Source: a virus
Length of the DNA stretch: 38,834 bases
IMG/VR virus record: IMGVR_UViG_3300044712_002418
Span: 1-38,834 of that record
Direction: 5' to 3' (one strand)
Part shown: piece by piece, positions 17,597 through 25,935 of the stretch
Position numbering within the stretch: the first letter of the stretch is position 1
Layout of the letters: each line of letters opens with the position of its first letter
Program-made: the position numbers and the translations under genes
Notes under the pieces: model-generated
Told to the model about the DNA's origin: nothing
The model's database searches: none
Seen by the model: only the letters and a program-made list of their open reading frames with translations

Positions 17597-17823
17597 GCGA
17601 GGCGAAAACAGCGGCCCGCGCTAAAACGGCGAAATTCGCGCCGGAACCCCCCTTCTGCGGGATTGGGCCGATTTCGGGTGCGCGAGGGTTTTTGAACTGT
17701 TGTGCAACGGCTGCAACGGTCTTTGCAACGGGTGGTGTGGATGGGGGGTCGCGCTTTGAGGCCGAATGTGCGGCGGGCGGGCCAAAACGGGCGTTCGCCG
17801 GGGCGGCGGGGAGGTGCGCGTGA
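17593..17823 (+). CDS. Small ORF between terminase and portal, 76 aa
   Basis: The frame overlaps the terminase stop (ATGA) and the portal start (GTGA), which supports translation. The protein (MSEAKTAARAKTAKFAPEPP, then FCGIGPISGARGFLNCCATA) is not recognised and looks little like a folded domain. The DNA is atypical for the region and contains three TGCAACGG repeats. It may be a spacer carrying a DNA site rather than a gene with a protein function. Confidence 0.35.
   Translation: MSEAKTAARAKTAKFAPEPPFCGIGPISGARGFLNCCATAATVFATGGVDGGSRFEAECAAGGPKRAFAGAAGRCA
17703..17731. repeat. Three direct TGCAACGG repeats
   Basis: TGCAACGG occurs at 17703-17710, 17712-17719 and 17724-17731, inside an otherwise unremarkable small ORF between the terminase and portal genes. 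Closely spaced short repeats like this are often protein-binding sites. No partner can be named. Confidence 0.5.
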
Positions 17824-19952
17824 AAAAGGCGGCGAAAAACGCGGCTGCGAAGCCGAAAGCGGGGCGGCCGGCGGGACGGCCGGCGGGGCTGGCGGCGGCG
17901 CGGCGGGTGGCGGCGTGGAACCGGTTCCGCGAGCAATACAACCCGCTGGTGGGGCTGACGATGGCGCGTGCGCGTGCGCTGGTGGAATCGTACCCGCGCG
18001 GGGAGTTCGCGGACCTGATGTGGCTGTACGGGGCGCCGATGATGGGGATCGAGGCGTCGGACGCGGACCTTGCGGCGCTGATCGAGCGGCGGGCGAGCGC
18101 GCTGCTGGAGATGGATTGGGAGATCCGGGTGTGCGCGCCGGAGAAGCCGGGGTTCGACGGGAAGCTGGCGGAGGAGCAGGCGGCGGCGCTGCGGGAGGCG
18201 TACGACCAGGTGGACAATCTTTACGCGGCGATCGAGCACCTGGCGCTGGCGACGTTCCGCGGGTTTGCGCACGCGGAGATGTGGCGGCGGCCGGACGGGG
18301 AGGTGCACCACCTGGAGCCGGTGGACCAGTGGAACGTGGTGCGCGACGGGCTGCGCGGGGGATGGAGGTACAACCCGGAGGCGCGGCAGTGCGGGTACGC
18401 GAACCTGCCGGCGGAGATGGAGATGGACCCGGCGGCGTATCTCTACCGCGAGGTGGCGCGGCCGGTGAACCGGATCGCGCTGACGAAGGTGATCCGGGCG
18501 TCGATGGGGCAGCGGGACTGGGACGCGTTCATCGATATTTACGGGCTGCCGGGCGGGGTGGTGATCGGGCCTCCGGGGGTGCCGGAGGAGAAGGAGGAGG
18601 TGTACGAGGCGAACGCGCTGAAGATCGCGGAGGGGGGCTCGGGGTACGTGCCGCACGGGGGCGATTACAAGGCGAACGACGGGCCGCGCGGGGTGAACCC
18701 GTTCCGCGATTACCTGGATTACCTGACGGAGAAGCTGATCCTGGCGGGGACGGGCGGGCTGCTGACGATGCTGGCGGAGAGCGGGACGGGGACGCTGGCG
18801 GGCGGGGCGCACCAGGAGACTTTCAAGGCGATTGCAAGGGGGGAGGCGCGGCGGGTGTCGGAGGTTTTCCAGCGGGGGTTCGATCTGCCGCTGCTGGAGG
18901 GGAAGTGGCCCACGAAGCCGGTGCTGGCGTATTTCGCGATCTCGGCGAACGAGGAGACGGATACGGGGGATGTGGTGGAGCAGGTGGCGAAGCTGGCGGT
19001 GGCGGGGTACCGGGTGACGCCGGAACAGGTGGCGGAGAAGACGGGGTACGATCTGGCGAAGGCGGAGCCGAATGATCCGGCCGATCCGGCTGATCCGACG
19101 GATCCGACGGATCGGGAAGATCGGCCTACTCCGGCGAACCGCGCGGCGGCGAACGCGGCGCCCGATGGGTTGCTGGCGGGGGTGCTGGGCGTGGCGCCTC
19201 GGTGGCTGGCCCCGGTGGCGCGGGAGGTGGCGGAGATCGAGCGGCGGCTGCTGGAGGGCGGGGCCGGGAGGGCGGAGGCGGTGGCGGCGCTGGAGGAGCT
19301 GCAAATGCGGTTGCCGGAGCTGCTTGGGGATATGGATGTGGCGGATCTGGCGACGGAGATGGAGGCGGCCGCCGGGACGGCGACGCTGCGGGGGGTGACG
19401 CGGGAGCTGAGCAACGGGAACCCGCACCACGACAAGACGGGGCGGTTCGCGGAAGGGCCTGGCGGATCGGGCGGACGGGAGTTTCGCGTGCAGACGCCGC
19501 CCGCGGTGATGCAGGCGCTGGGGCTGGAGAGCGGCCACGTGTACGCGGACGCCGCGGCTCTGGCGGCGAAGCACCCGGAGTATTTCCGGGATGCGGCCGA
19601 GGCTCGGGAGTACGTGGAATACGTTTTCGCGCGCCCGACTCTGGTGATGCCAGGCAACGTGCCCACTCACCGTCTCGTCGTGAGAAAAGGGGAAGCCGAC
19701 GAGCACAAAGCCGCCGCGATCGAGGTGGTGAAGCGCGGCGGGAAGTACCGCGTGAAGTCGGCGCACACTTTGACCGACAAACAGTTGGCGGCAAAAGAAG
19801 GGGCGTTCGCCGGCCAGGTCGTCAGGCTTGGGGTCTCGCGTGTAGATCCCGAAAACCGGGAAACACCTTCGAGGCGACTAGGCGCGTCTCGCGGCGCGCT
19901 TCCGGCGAACGTGGCCAAGGTACTCGCGGGCGGATTGGAGGTCAACCGATGA
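17820..19952 (+). CDS. Portal protein (DUF935, Mu gp29-like) with C-terminal BECR-like domain
   Basis: A 710-residue protein starting at GTG. Residues 1-415 are the DUF935 portal (ALVESYPRGEFADLMWLYGA, LIERRASALLEMDWEI, AHQETFKAIARGEARRVSEV), the dodecameric channel for DNA. A DP-repeat linker (about 417-435; DPADPADPTDPTD) and a helical region follow. At about 534 is HHDKTGRFAEGPGG, a linker motif. Residues 553-690 form an extra domain: HPEYFRDAAEAREYVEYVFA, THRLVVRKGEADEHKAAAIE, then VVKRGGKYRVKSAHTLTDKQ. This resembles phage BECR-type nucleases (PBECR). Classical portals lack this tail (Mu gp29 is about 512 residues). The domain call is weaker than the portal call. Confidence 0.88.
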   Translation: MKKAAKNAAAKPKAGRPAGRPAGLAAARRVAAWNRFREQYNPLVGLTMARARALVESYPRGEFADLMWLYGAPMMGIEASDADLAALIERRASALLEMDWEIRVCAPEKPGFDGKLAEEQAAALREAYDQVDNLYAAIEHLALATFRGFAHAEMWRRPDGEVHHLEPVDQWNVVRDGLRGGWRYNPEARQCGYANLPAEMEMDPAAYLYREVARPVNRIALTKVIRASMGQRDWDAFIDIYGLPGGVVIGPPGVPEEKEEVYEANALKIAEGGSGYVPHGGDYKANDGPRGVNPFRDYLDYLTEKLILAGTGGLLTMLAESGTGTLAGGAHQETFKAIARGEARRVSEVFQRGFDLPLLEGKWPTKPVLAYFAISANEETDTGDVVEQVAKLAVAGYRVTPEQVAEKTGYDLAKAEPNDPADPADPTDPTDREDRPTPANRAAANAAPDGLLAGVLGVAPRWLAPVAREVAEIERRLLEGGAGRAEAVAALEELQMRLPELLGDMDVADLATEMEAAAGTATLRGVTRELSNGNPHHDKTGRFAEGPGGSGGREFRVQTPPAVMQALGLESGHVYADAAALAAKHPEYFRDAAEAREYVEYVFARPTLVMPGNVPTHRLVVRKGEADEHKAAAIEVVKRGGKYRVKSAHTLTDKQLAAKEGAFAGQVVRLGVSRVDPENRETPSRRLGASRGALPANVAKVLAGGLEVNR
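19070..19125. repeat. Short tandem repeat encoding an Asp-Pro linker
   Basis: Variants of GATCCGGCC/GATCCGACG repeat in register and encode DPADPADPTDPTD in the portal protein. The repeat sits exactly between the portal core and the C-terminal extension, so its length may vary between relatives. Confidence 0.65.
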
Positions 19953-23167: not shown

Positions 23168-23617
23168 ATGGCCTGGATCGAGATCACCGAAGACGACGTG
23201 AAGACCCGCCTCGCGGGCGCGGAACTCTCCGCGCTGACGGGGGCGGCTCTCGCGGGCGGGCAGACGAGCCCGCTGGCGGACGTGATCGCGCAGGTGACGC
23301 GGGAGGTGCGGGGGTACGTGGCGGGGTGCGCTGCGAACACGCTGGGGGACGGGGCGACGATCCCGGACGAGCTGCTCGGCGCGGCGCTGGCGCTGGTGCG
23401 CGAGGGGCTGGCGTCGAGGCTGCCGCGGTTCCCGCTGGACGAGACGCGGCGGGAACAGGCGCGGGCGGCGCGGGCGCAACTGCGCGACGCGGCGGATTGC
23501 CGCCTGAAGGTGGCGGGGCCGGAGACGGCGACGGCGGAGAGGATCGCCTCCCCCACCCCGCGAATCACGGCGCGGGAACGGCGGTTCACGCGGGGCAACG
23601 GGGAGGGCATCCTATGA
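23168..23617 (+). CDS. Head-tail connector (DUF1320/Mu gp36-like)
   Basis: A 149-residue protein with the N-terminal pattern of Mu gp36 (DUF1320): MAWIEITEDDVKTRLAGAEL, a following helix with VIAQVTREVRGYVAGC, and then a helix through LLGAALALVREGLASRLPRF. The C-terminal tail is basic (RITARERRFTRGNGEGIL). The family forms the first ring below the portal. It overlaps the next gene by ATGA. Confidence 0.8.
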   Translation: MAWIEITEDDVKTRLAGAELSALTGAALAGGQTSPLADVIAQVTREVRGYVAGCAANTLGDGATIPDELLGAALALVREGLASRLPRFPLDETRREQARAARAQLRDAADCRLKVAGPETATAERIASPTPRITARERRFTRGNGEGIL

Positions 23618-24897
23618 TTGACCTGATGACGCCGGTGCCGCTGGCGGAGGCGGTGCGCGACCTGGGGGCGCGTACGCCGGTGGGCTCGATCCTGCGCTCG
23701 GCGGAGTGGGCGCAGATGCCGCGGGTGCTGCGGGATGAGGCGCTTTTCTCGGCGGGGGTGACGAGCCTGCGGGTGCTGGGCGAGATCGGTGCGCGCCTGG
23801 ACAAGATGATCGCGCTGGAGAGCGAGCCGACGGCTTCCGGAGAGGATGCGATGGCGACGCGGTCGACTTTCATCGGGGACCTGAAGCGGATCTTGGCGGA
23901 TTTCGGCTACCGGCCGGAGCCGGGCAAGGAGGGGGGGCTGCAAGATCTCTCGAGCGCGCGGCGGCTGCGGCTGATCGCGGATATGAATTTGCAGCAGGCG
24001 CAGGAGCGGGCGCGGTTCAAGATGGGGCAAGACCCCGACATGCTGGACAATTTCCCGGCGCAAGAGCTGGTGCGGATGGAGTCGCGGATGGTGCCGCGGC
24101 AGTGGCGGCAGCGCTGGGCGGAGGCGGGGGGCAAGTTTTTCGACGGGCGGATGATCGCGCTGAAGAGCGATCCGGTGTGGGTGAAAATCTCGCGGTTCGG
24201 GCGCCCGTGGCCGCCGTTCGATTTCGGGAGCGGGATGGGGATCGAGGACGTGGAGCGCGGTGAGGCGGAGGCGCTGGGGCTGATCGCTCCGGAGGAGACG
24301 CCGGAACCGGTGGAGGCGGGTATGCGCGCCGAGGGCGAAGCGGAGCTGAAGGGGGCGCTGGAACGGCCGGGGTTTGCAAAGGCGCTGAAATCGCTTTTCG
24401 GGGACCAGATCGAGATCGATGGGACGACGGCGCGGTGGGTGGACCGGACGGGGGCGGCGAACACGCGGGCGTACCGGAGGGACCAGCTGGGGCGTTTCGC
24501 GAAGGACGGCGGGCCGCTCTCTCGGGAGGACAACCTCCGGCGGGGGAAGGCGGCGATCGAGAGGGCGCTGCGGCGGCAGGAGGATGTGCCGGGGGCGATG
24601 AGCGTGGCGCGCTTGGGGGTGATCGATTTCGAGTGGGGTCGGCCCGGCACGGCAAAGCCGAACCCGGCGGGAGCCACCCACGCGGACGGCTACGGGATCT
24701 CGCACATCGTGGCGAAACACGGGGTGGCGGCGGCCAGAAAGCTCCCGGAGGTGTTGGCGTTGGGAGACATCAAGCCACATCTGGCCGATGGGTCGAAGCG
24801 AGTGGTGAGACTCAAAGGGTGGATGGCCGTGGTTCAGTACAAAAGCGCCACGCGGGCCTACGTGGTGACGAGCTTCGACGAGGAGGCAAAAAAATGA
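23614..24897 (+). CDS. F-like head morphogenesis protein with C-terminal PBECR-type nuclease domain
   Basis: A 427-residue two-part protein. Residues 1-235 resemble the Mu F-type minor head protein: MESRMVPRQWRQRWAEAGGK, FFDGRMIALKSDPVWVKIS, then RPWPPFDFGSGMGIEDVERG and LGL. At about 286 is YRRDQLGRFAKDGG, the same linker type as in the portal. Residues 350-427 match phage BECR-type nucleases (PBECR): HADGYGISHIVAKHG, VLALGDIKP, KRVVRLKGWMAVVQYKS, then AYVVTSFDEEAKK, with His in the first helix and an aromatic/TSF end. A nuclease carried on a head protein could be delivered with the DNA. F in Mu lies before G, as here. Confidence 0.85.
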   Translation: MIDLMTPVPLAEAVRDLGARTPVGSILRSAEWAQMPRVLRDEALFSAGVTSLRVLGEIGARLDKMIALESEPTASGEDAMATRSTFIGDLKRILADFGYRPEPGKEGGLQDLSSARRLRLIADMNLQQAQERARFKMGQDPDMLDNFPAQELVRMESRMVPRQWRQRWAEAGGKFFDGRMIALKSDPVWVKISRFGRPWPPFDFGSGMGIEDVERGEAEALGLIAPEETPEPVEAGMRAEGEAELKGALERPGFAKALKSLFGDQIEIDGTTARWVDRTGAANTRAYRRDQLGRFAKDGGPLSREDNLRRGKAAIERALRRQEDVPGAMSVARLGVIDFEWGRPGTAKPNPAGATHADGYGISHIVAKHGVAAARKLPEVLALGDIKPHLADGSKRVVRLKGWMAVVQYKSATRAYVVTSFDEEAKK

Positions 24898-25073
24898 GCC
24901 GGTATCCCATGCGGTCAACCGGCTCTACGGGGAAGGTGGGATCGGGTGCGCATTATCCCTGCCCTACACACGCTACCCTACTTTTTGGCAAGGGTAGCGC
25001 GGGTGCCTCCGAGGCTTTGAATTTCGCGCCCGGCGCGGCTGGCCGCAAGCGTTTTTTGGAGGGCTCCCGATGA
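24894..25073 (+). CDS. Small ORF downstream of the F-like gene, 59 aa
   Basis: It starts at an ATG overlapping the F stop (ATGA): MSRYPMRSTGSTGKVGSGAH, ending in NFAPGAAGRKRFLEGSR. The last dozen residues are repeated at the end of the following small ORF, so both may carry the old C-terminal end of an ancestral F protein. It could be a partner of the nuclease domain or debris of cassette exchange. A 9-bp stem hairpin (24971-24979 with 24991-24999) lies within it. No family is recognised. Confidence 0.4.
   Translation: MSRYPMRSTGSTGKVGSGAHYPCPTHATLLFGKGSAGASEALNFAPGAAGRKRFLEGSR
24971..24999. repeat. Inverted repeat within the small ORF
   Basis: CGCTACCCT and AGGGTAGCG form a perfect 9-bp stem around an 11-base loop containing CTTTTTGG. 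It stands out in a GC-rich region and may mark a recombination or regulatory site connected with the neighbouring tandem duplication. Confidence 0.6.
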
Positions 25074-25112
25074 GGCCGGAGATCACGACGCTCAGCGATG
25101 AGGCGACGCCGG
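25024..25112. repeat. 89-bp direct repeat, copy 1
   Basis: This matches 25242-25330 at about 83 of 89 positions. It includes the codons for APGAAGRKRFLE, a GGAGG-like ribosome site and the first 15 codons of the next gene (MRPEITTL...). It begins a 218-bp tandem unit. Confidence 0.85.
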
Positions 25113-25291
25113 GTGCTGACCGGCTACAAAAAAGAAAGGGGCGACCGATGAACCGCGCGAAGATCCCGATCCGCAACGGCCTACGTGCCCTGGCGTTACA
25201 CTTTTTGCGCGCCAAGGCTGGAGCGGTCGCCCGGACTAAGGTCGCGCCCGGCGCGGCTGGCCGCAAGCGTTTTTTGGAGGTCGCGCGATGA
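25070..25291 (+). CDS. Truncated duplicate start fused to a small ORF, 73 aa
   Basis: The first 15 residues (MRPEITTLSDEATPG) copy the start of the true morphogenesis gene at 25288. The frame then runs into unrelated sequence with an internal ATG (MNRAKIPIRNGLRALALHFL, at 25149) and ends in KVAPGAAGRKRFLEVAR, a copy of the end of the previous ORF. It overlaps its neighbours by ATGA. It looks like the debris or partner gene of an inserted cassette. The internal part, a short basic helix, is the only unique sequence. Confidence 0.4.
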   Translation: MRPEITTLSDEATPGADRLQKRKGRPMNRAKIPIRNGLRALALHFLRAKAGAVARTKVAPGAAGRKRFLEVAR

Positions 25292-25330
25292 GGCCGGAGA
25301 TCACGACGCTCCGAGACGAGGCGACGCCGG
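25242..25330. repeat. 89-bp direct repeat, copy 2
   Basis: The second copy of the junction, at the true start of the morphogenesis gene (ATG 25288). Differences from copy 1 are clustered in two short blocks, around the ribosome site and codons 9-11. Confidence 0.85.
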
Positions 25331-25935
25331 CGCTGCGGAAAGTGTACGACGCGCTGGCCCCAGGTCGCCGCCGCCATTTCCTCGCCTACGTGGCGGGGCG
25401 GGTGGCGAAACGGCAGCGGGCTCACTTCCGCGCGCGGGAGGCGTCGGGCGACAGCAAGCGGGCGCGCAAGGGGTGGCGGTCGCGGCATTTCTGGGCGGCT
25501 GCGGCGCGGGCGACGACGGTGACGGCGGTGTCGGATAGCCGGGCGACGGTGACGGTGGCGTCGCGGGAGGTGGCGTTTAAGGCGCGCGGGGGGACGGTGA
25601 CGCCGAAACGGGGCAAGTACCTGGCGATCCCGCTGCGGGCGGAGGCTTACGCGAAGGGGAGCCCGCGGGAGTGGGACGGGCAGCGGGCGCTTTTCCCGGT
25701 GCGCTCGCGGCGGGGGAATCTTTTCCTCGCGTCGATGAGCCACGTTCACGCGACGAACTGGCGGCAGGACCTCGGGGCCGGGCCGCTGGGGGGGACGGGG
25801 CTGGTGCTGCAATATCTGCTGGTGCGCCGGGCGACGGTGCCGCGCGACGGGGACGTGATCCGGGCCGGGATGCTGGAGGCTGAGGCGGGTGCGGCGGCGG
25901 AATCTTACGCGGAGGAGCGCTTGCTGCGGAGATGA
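25288..25935 (+). CDS. Virion morphogenesis protein (Mu G-like / tail completion)
   Basis: A 215-residue basic protein in the place of Mu G (gp31), after F. It has an N-terminal helix (PALRKVYDALAPGRRRHFLA), a strand-rich core (AVSDSRATVTVASREVAFKA, KYLAIPLRAEAYA) and a strand near the end (LVLQYLLVRRATVPRDGDVI). This is consistent with the compact fold of phage morphogenesis/tail-completion proteins, though the match is from pattern and position. Shine-Dalgarno GGAGG lies 7 bases before the ATG. Confidence 0.6.
   Translation: MRPEITTLRDEATPALRKVYDALAPGRRRHFLAYVAGRVAKRQRAHFRAREASGDSKRARKGWRSRHFWAAAARATTVTAVSDSRATVTVASREVAFKARGGTVTPKRGKYLAIPLRAEAYAKGSPREWDGQRALFPVRSRRGNLFLASMSHVHATNWRQDLGAGPLGGTGLVLQYLLVRRATVPRDGDVIRAGMLEAEAGAAAESYAEERLLRR

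Follow-up and report, generated by a model that had tools for sequence, protein, structure and literature searches.

A minor head protein with a candidate PBECR1-type nuclease tip and a duplicated downstream gene junction in a Verrucomicrobiota phage

Results

Organization of the F locus

The window analysed here is a 38,834-nucleotide stretch of viral DNA, in which a Mu-type portal gene (17766-19952) is followed by genes for a protease and the major head protein, by a gp36-like gene and then by F (23614-24897, plus strand), an open frame of 427 aa. Residues 1-276 of F (23614..24441, plus strand) form a core, delimited with a 21-row alignment and conserved in 116 homologues, which can be assigned as a minor head protein. 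The family phrog_220, 'minor head protein and DNA pilot', was matched by the core in 14 of the 21 members (best E 1.2e-5); the core is also similar to head morphogenesis proteins of Akkermansia phages and matches contigs of Verrucomicrobiota genomes, the F family being present in 68 of 388 genomes sampled from Verrucomicrobiota. Searches with the 21 members gave no match of the core to Pfam families, including MuF, and comparison of its structure with the PDB gave no usable match; the core may still have a MuF fold. Gene G (25288..25935, plus strand), which encodes a tail/virion morphogenesis-type protein, is of the type found 3' of F in relatives, as indicated by 26% identity with the gene that directly overlaps F in one related locus (L002) and by profile matches.

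F and G are separated by two small ORFs on the plus strand, i.e. ORF1 (24894..25073, 59 aa) and ORF2 (25070..25291, 73 aa), with ATGA overlaps at the F/ORF1, ORF1/ORF2 and ORF2/G boundaries. The first 14 codons of G are copied at the start of ORF2, which ends with GAAGRKRFLEVAR. The F/G junction itself is present twice, as 89-bp direct repeats (25024..25112 and 25242..25330, the latter starting the present G gene) with a spacing of 218 bp and identity at 83 of 89 positions (93%). Each copy comprises the end GAAGRKRFLE, a GGAGG ribosome-binding site, an ATGA overlap and the first 14 codons of G. An earlier note on this DNA had described a 218-bp tandem unit with 89-bp ends repeating GAAGRKRFLE and the start of the next gene, which is borne out by the alignment; of the two small ORFs that it placed inside the unit, ORF2 does lie there, but ORF1 does not, its first ~130 bp being different sequence. 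Similarity between the two units in their unique upstream halves of 129 bp is no more than marginal (P 0.026). By blastn (E 7e-33 between the copies) the repeat was absent elsewhere in the loci fetched up to then, and blastn of the junction against phages gave no match. Since a search of viral contigs with the junction peptide AGRKRFLEG, exact or degenerate, was likewise without a match, these searches gave no close relative for the junction. Such repeats fit the idea that new DNA was inserted between the two genes.

The C-terminal tip of F

Residues 288-427 of F (24475..24894, plus strand) make up a tip module, consisting of a linker (RRDQLGRFAKDGGPLS...) and a PBECR1-type BECR nuclease domain, as assigned from alignment, Pfam matches in homologues and the predicted fold. 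The linker segment RDQLGRFAKDGGPLS is part of the common module, with L119 being 42% identical, linker included, in an alignment with portal C-termini and other homologues. The Pfam PBECR1 match of F itself is below threshold (E 0.0095, 16.9 bits vs a cut-off of 27.6), but the cut-off is exceeded by tip homologues from Verrucomicrobiota genomes (40.3 bits for L118, 38.1 for L117). In the predicted structure of the tip (pLDDT 80.6) helices H74-82 and H90-96 are accompanied by four strands, an arrangement that agrees with the BECR fold of an N-terminal helix followed by four or five strands. The structural neighbours of the model, including CdiA-CT, BrnT, RelE, YoeB, HigB and colicin E5, are nearly all BECR toxins; individual Z values are modest, the best being only 5.7, and the reading as a nuclease fold rests on the agreement of the neighbour list rather than on any single Z. 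The earlier note's view that F ends in a PBECR-type nuclease domain, to be compared with BECR nucleases by structure prediction, is thus supported both by the homologues above the PBECR1 cut-off and by the predicted fold.

A candidate active-site pattern, with a His in the helix and a Thr/Ser in the last strand, is apparent where GYGISHIVAKHG and YVVTSF align with homologues, and fits the PBECR active-site configuration described in PMC5512222. The tip is likely to be an RNA-cutting (endoribonuclease) domain. In tblastn searches of phages and plasmids the tip gave no match.

Tip variation on F and portal proteins

The comparison covered 116 non-duplicate F homologues of Verrucomicrobiota phages and prophages in which the end could be read, those having at least 130 residues after a conserved PPFD motif being counted as tipped. 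Whereas the core is conserved, the C-terminal end is variable; 61 of the 116 are tipped and 55 tipless, and the 61 tips fall by clustering into at least 18 kinds, in support of the variation among relatives for which the earlier note proposed to look. The tip of the window clusters with that of L147. By Pfam, the kinds include PBECR1, PBECR3 and a 2H phosphoesterase/Acb1-like anti-CBASS domain, and the tips of L004, L007 and L026 are metallopeptidase-like, with an HExxH motif in the sequence. The 2H case is the F homologue at L020:3459-4934, where a 2'-5' RNA ligase/2H phosphoesterase tip matches the anti-CBASS protein Acb1 by Pfam; it is possibly an anti-defence enzyme carried in the virion.

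PBECR1 tips are also found as the C-termini of Portal_Mu-type proteins, in L118-L120 and L122-L124 (Verrucomicrobiota genomes and prophages). Related tip modules thus occur on two kinds of virion protein, namely F in the window phage and the portal in other phages. Tips of this sort are exchanged onto the conserved F core, and onto the portal, across Verrucomicrobiota phages.

The DNA between F and G

ORF1 and ORF2 gave no family match, and their codon scores (-0.40 and -0.03) are below those of F (0.28) and G (0.37). GC3 in the unique parts is 0.60 and 0.67, compared with 0.87-0.93 in the phage genes and 0.82 in the tip in frame, and between about 24860 and 25400 the G-over-C skew drops almost to zero. 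With 60-70 codons per frame such codon statistics are weak, and a gene acquired recently may also have a foreign appearance. The predicted products are strongly basic (pI 10.5 and 12.0), and the tip is basic also. L147 shares its tip type with the window, and its gap has no similarity to the gap or small ORFs there. The PBECR3-tipped L014, L033, L037, L089 and L092 have an F-G spacing of at most 25 bp and thus no room for a partner gene.

Considering F-G gaps more widely, 13 of 27 have a frame that stays open from the F stop as far as the G start, vs 4.5 expected from shuffles, which argues for translational bridging. The window is not among the 13 cases, its two ORFs overlapping as a chain; ORF1 is probably a bridging frame rather than a separate gene. 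In other gaps (L145, L148, L154, L094) there are short hydrophobic frames in the sense direction before G, e.g. MNLFDVILCILLGFLLAAAISAMM in L154, which possibly encode small membrane proteins.

Antisense elements at the F stop

An antisense element resembling an intrinsic terminator lies across the F stop (24888..24925, minus strand), with a hairpin GAGCCGGT...ACCGGCTC (24896-24925) and a T7 run into F (24888-24894). At the thresholds used it is the only element of its type on either strand of the 38.8-kb window. On the plus strand the T-run corresponds to an A7 run immediately 5' of the F stop, and ORF1 occupies the -1 frame there; the run is possibly a slip site, or merely the T-run of the antisense terminator. 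Of the 61 tipped F stops 11 have an antisense terminator, as against 0 of the 55 tipless ones (Fisher P 0.0007; background rate 0.0096 per 100 bp), a comparison to be read with the provisos that the window, L018 and L019 prompted the test, that L034 and L090 are weak, and that L148 and L154 are close relatives, on account of which a binomial value for the excess is too favourable. In the sense direction, no terminator was found at the F stops of the 116 loci. Six perfect stems of at least 8 bp occur at tipped F stops, and in each the T-run is antisense, compared with an A-run in 3 of 1740 random positions. A sense hairpin sequestering the Shine-Dalgarno sequence was considered and rejected, since in every hairpin at the F stop the A-run is on the left.

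When folded on the plus strand, the two unique segments of the window (z -1.5 and about 0) showed no strong structured RNA; the antisense segment of the window folds with z -2.7. The window has no antisense ORF that looks coding by codon score, and no sigma-70-like promoter was found in it for an antisense unit.

The minus strands of the L018, L091 and L019 gaps fold (z -4.7, -2.8 and -1.6) into a three-way junction, with an intrinsic terminator in all three. An RNA model built from these loci matched L054 at the F stop, and a wider model matched L094 just past the F stop; both are PBECR3-tipped. The copies, all antisense to F and just past its stop, are at L018:4730-4845, L019:4778-4895, L091:2682-2793, L054:4162-4285 and L094:1046-1099. 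In an alignment that was fitted to the structure, 89% of cells are paired, compared with 32-44% in slid controls, and 9 pairs have double changes. The models gave no match in the window. Rfam searches of the window and gaps gave nothing at the gathering score, with chance matches below it, and the three-way-junction RNA has no Rfam family. A model match in L173 was taken as chance, the core being missing.

Copies of the RNA occur away from F at L169:1496-1599, convergent with an XRE-type regulator gene and upstream of an mraZ-like gene, and at L172:1501-1612, opposite a frame of >1000 aa resembling a phage polyvalent protein. Antisense open frames are present in gaps beside tipped F genes in L040, L007, L054, L115/L128 and L133, the one in L040 having the same codon score as F.

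Discussion

The carrying of nuclease tips by MuF-like and portal proteins has been published (PMC5512222, PMC5576092): Iyer et al. 2017 (PMC5512222) described MuF and portal domains fused to PBECR and 2H domains, and Jamet et al. 2017 (PMC5576092) described MuF toxins that are followed by small ORFs and are presumed to be delivered together with the DNA. Thus, the tip-on-head-protein architecture is already known. Like the MuF polymorphic toxins (PMC5576092), F combines a conserved N-terminal part with a variable toxin-type C terminus on a head protein, and small ORFs lie downstream, as is often the case in that family. By contrast with the MuF toxins, the F core is without a Pfam MuF match, its gene follows a gp36-like adaptor gene rather than directly following the portal gene, the small ORFs are not immunity-like, and the hosts are Verrucomicrobiota. 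With the PBECR fusions (PMC5512222) the present proteins share the nuclease fold and candidate active-site pattern on both kinds of virion protein; what is added to those fusions is that related modules are carried by F or, in other phages, by the portal, together with the antisense terminator, the junction duplication and the extension of the portal C terminus in the window phage.

The reading that we favour, with moderate confidence, is that F is a MuF-like minor head protein with an exchangeable PBECR1-type tip, that the junction was duplicated by a rearrangement, and that the small ORFs are mainly bridging frames rather than a conserved immunity gene. The tip, with about 0.4 kb of trailing DNA, would have come to lie between the F core and G, with the rearrangement doubling the junction so that G's ribosome-binding site, the ATGA overlap and the first codons are present twice. 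The two small ORFs would then mainly let ribosomes pass from F to G via the ATGA overlaps. By extension of the published proposals, F would be built into the head and enter a new host with the DNA, where the tip may cut host or defence RNA early in infection; the entry of protein with DNA is a published hypothesis (PMC5576092, PMC5512222).

The earlier note had proposed a different arrangement, in which insertion of a cassette made up of a toxin tip and an immunity gene (ORF1 and/or ORF2) displaced the previous end of the gene, as in CdiA or Rhs loci. The duplicated junction and the variation of tips are as such an insertion would leave them, and gaps of at least 35 bp are commoner beside tipped F genes (23/42) than beside tipless ones (9/37; P 0.01). 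A role of the small ORFs as the partner gene of the toxin is, however, not supported: they are without the codon pattern of the phage, they encode basic products beside a basic tip, they are dissimilar to the gap of the same-tip locus L147, and PBECR3-tipped relatives have F and G overlapping or nearly so. The cassette with its immunity gene is therefore unlikely, and the small ORFs are better regarded as frames that bridge a recombination scar. The analogy with CdiA-CT and Rhs loci with orphan modules therefore holds for the exchange of a tip at the end of a conserved carrier, with a remnant of the old junction, but not for immunity; unlike those loci, the window is without an identifiable immunity gene and the carrier is a virion protein.

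The antisense terminator admits more than one account. It may be a passenger, with donor DNA 3' of the toxin gene having had a convergent or two-way terminator and the copies that silence G having been lost; such filtering would be expected, as G and the tail genes would be silenced by a terminator in the sense direction. This account, which is compatible with an exchangeable tip and a junction scar, agrees with the lack of sense-direction terminators in the 116 loci and with the mostly non-coding nature of the gap DNA, and we regard it as quite possible, though short of an even chance. It does not readily explain why the gap RNA is better kept than the tip between L018 and L091 (64% vs 59% identity), or why that RNA has compensatory changes, which are unexpected for passenger DNA. 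Alternatively, the F-G gap may contain an antisense unit ending at the F stop, whose RNA product (a small protein in certain phages) would control the tip or neutralise it as long as the late operon is not expressed. The restriction of the terminators to tipped F stops, the antisense orientation of all six perfect hairpins there, the conserved, covarying RNA beside five PBECR3 tips, and the antisense ORFs in the gaps of L040, L007 and L054 point in this direction; however, the window itself lacks a coding-like antisense ORF, a sigma-70-like promoter and a match to the RNA model, three loci had prompted the terminator comparison and some others (L148/L154) are close relatives, and the RNA also has copies away from F (L169, L172). 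Overall, we consider such a unit decidedly unlikely. The broader proposal that a structured small RNA antisense to the F-G gap restrains head-protein nuclease tips in Verrucomicrobiota lysogens, so replacing a downstream-encoded immunity protein, is a speculation to which we give little credence. Type III toxin-antitoxin systems, in which an endoRNase is countered by an RNA antitoxin, offer an analogy only, in that a structured RNA lies beside an RNase-fold protein in the PBECR3 relatives; unlike in those systems the RNA is antisense, and its model is without a match in the window. Finally, the sequence GCA AAA AAA TGA, followed by an 8-bp stem and with ORF1 in the -1 frame, could be taken as a programmed -1 frameshift at A AAA AAA, aided by the hairpin, that extends F through ORF1 to GAAGRKRFLEGSR. 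Against this, the stem begins 1-2 nt after the slippery heptamer, which is closer than usual, ORF1 is without a coding signal, and other tipped F stops have not kept the arrangement; a frameshift here is highly improbable.

With F read as a carrier of exchangeable tips, the known tip-on-head-protein theme extends to a large, mostly unannotated Verrucomicrobiota family with many kinds of effector. The locus may also provide a testable lead as to how self-poisoning is avoided, i.e. not by the obvious small ORFs but possibly by a factor on the opposite strand. The portal protein of the window (17766..19952, plus strand; Portal_Mu residues 95-427) has an extra C-terminal tip of ~170 aa beginning near HHDKTGRFAEGPGG, and the window phage may thus carry two effector tips on head proteins. 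Homologues of this portal tip are found within giant open frames (1423-3942 aa) of Verrucomicrobiota genomes.
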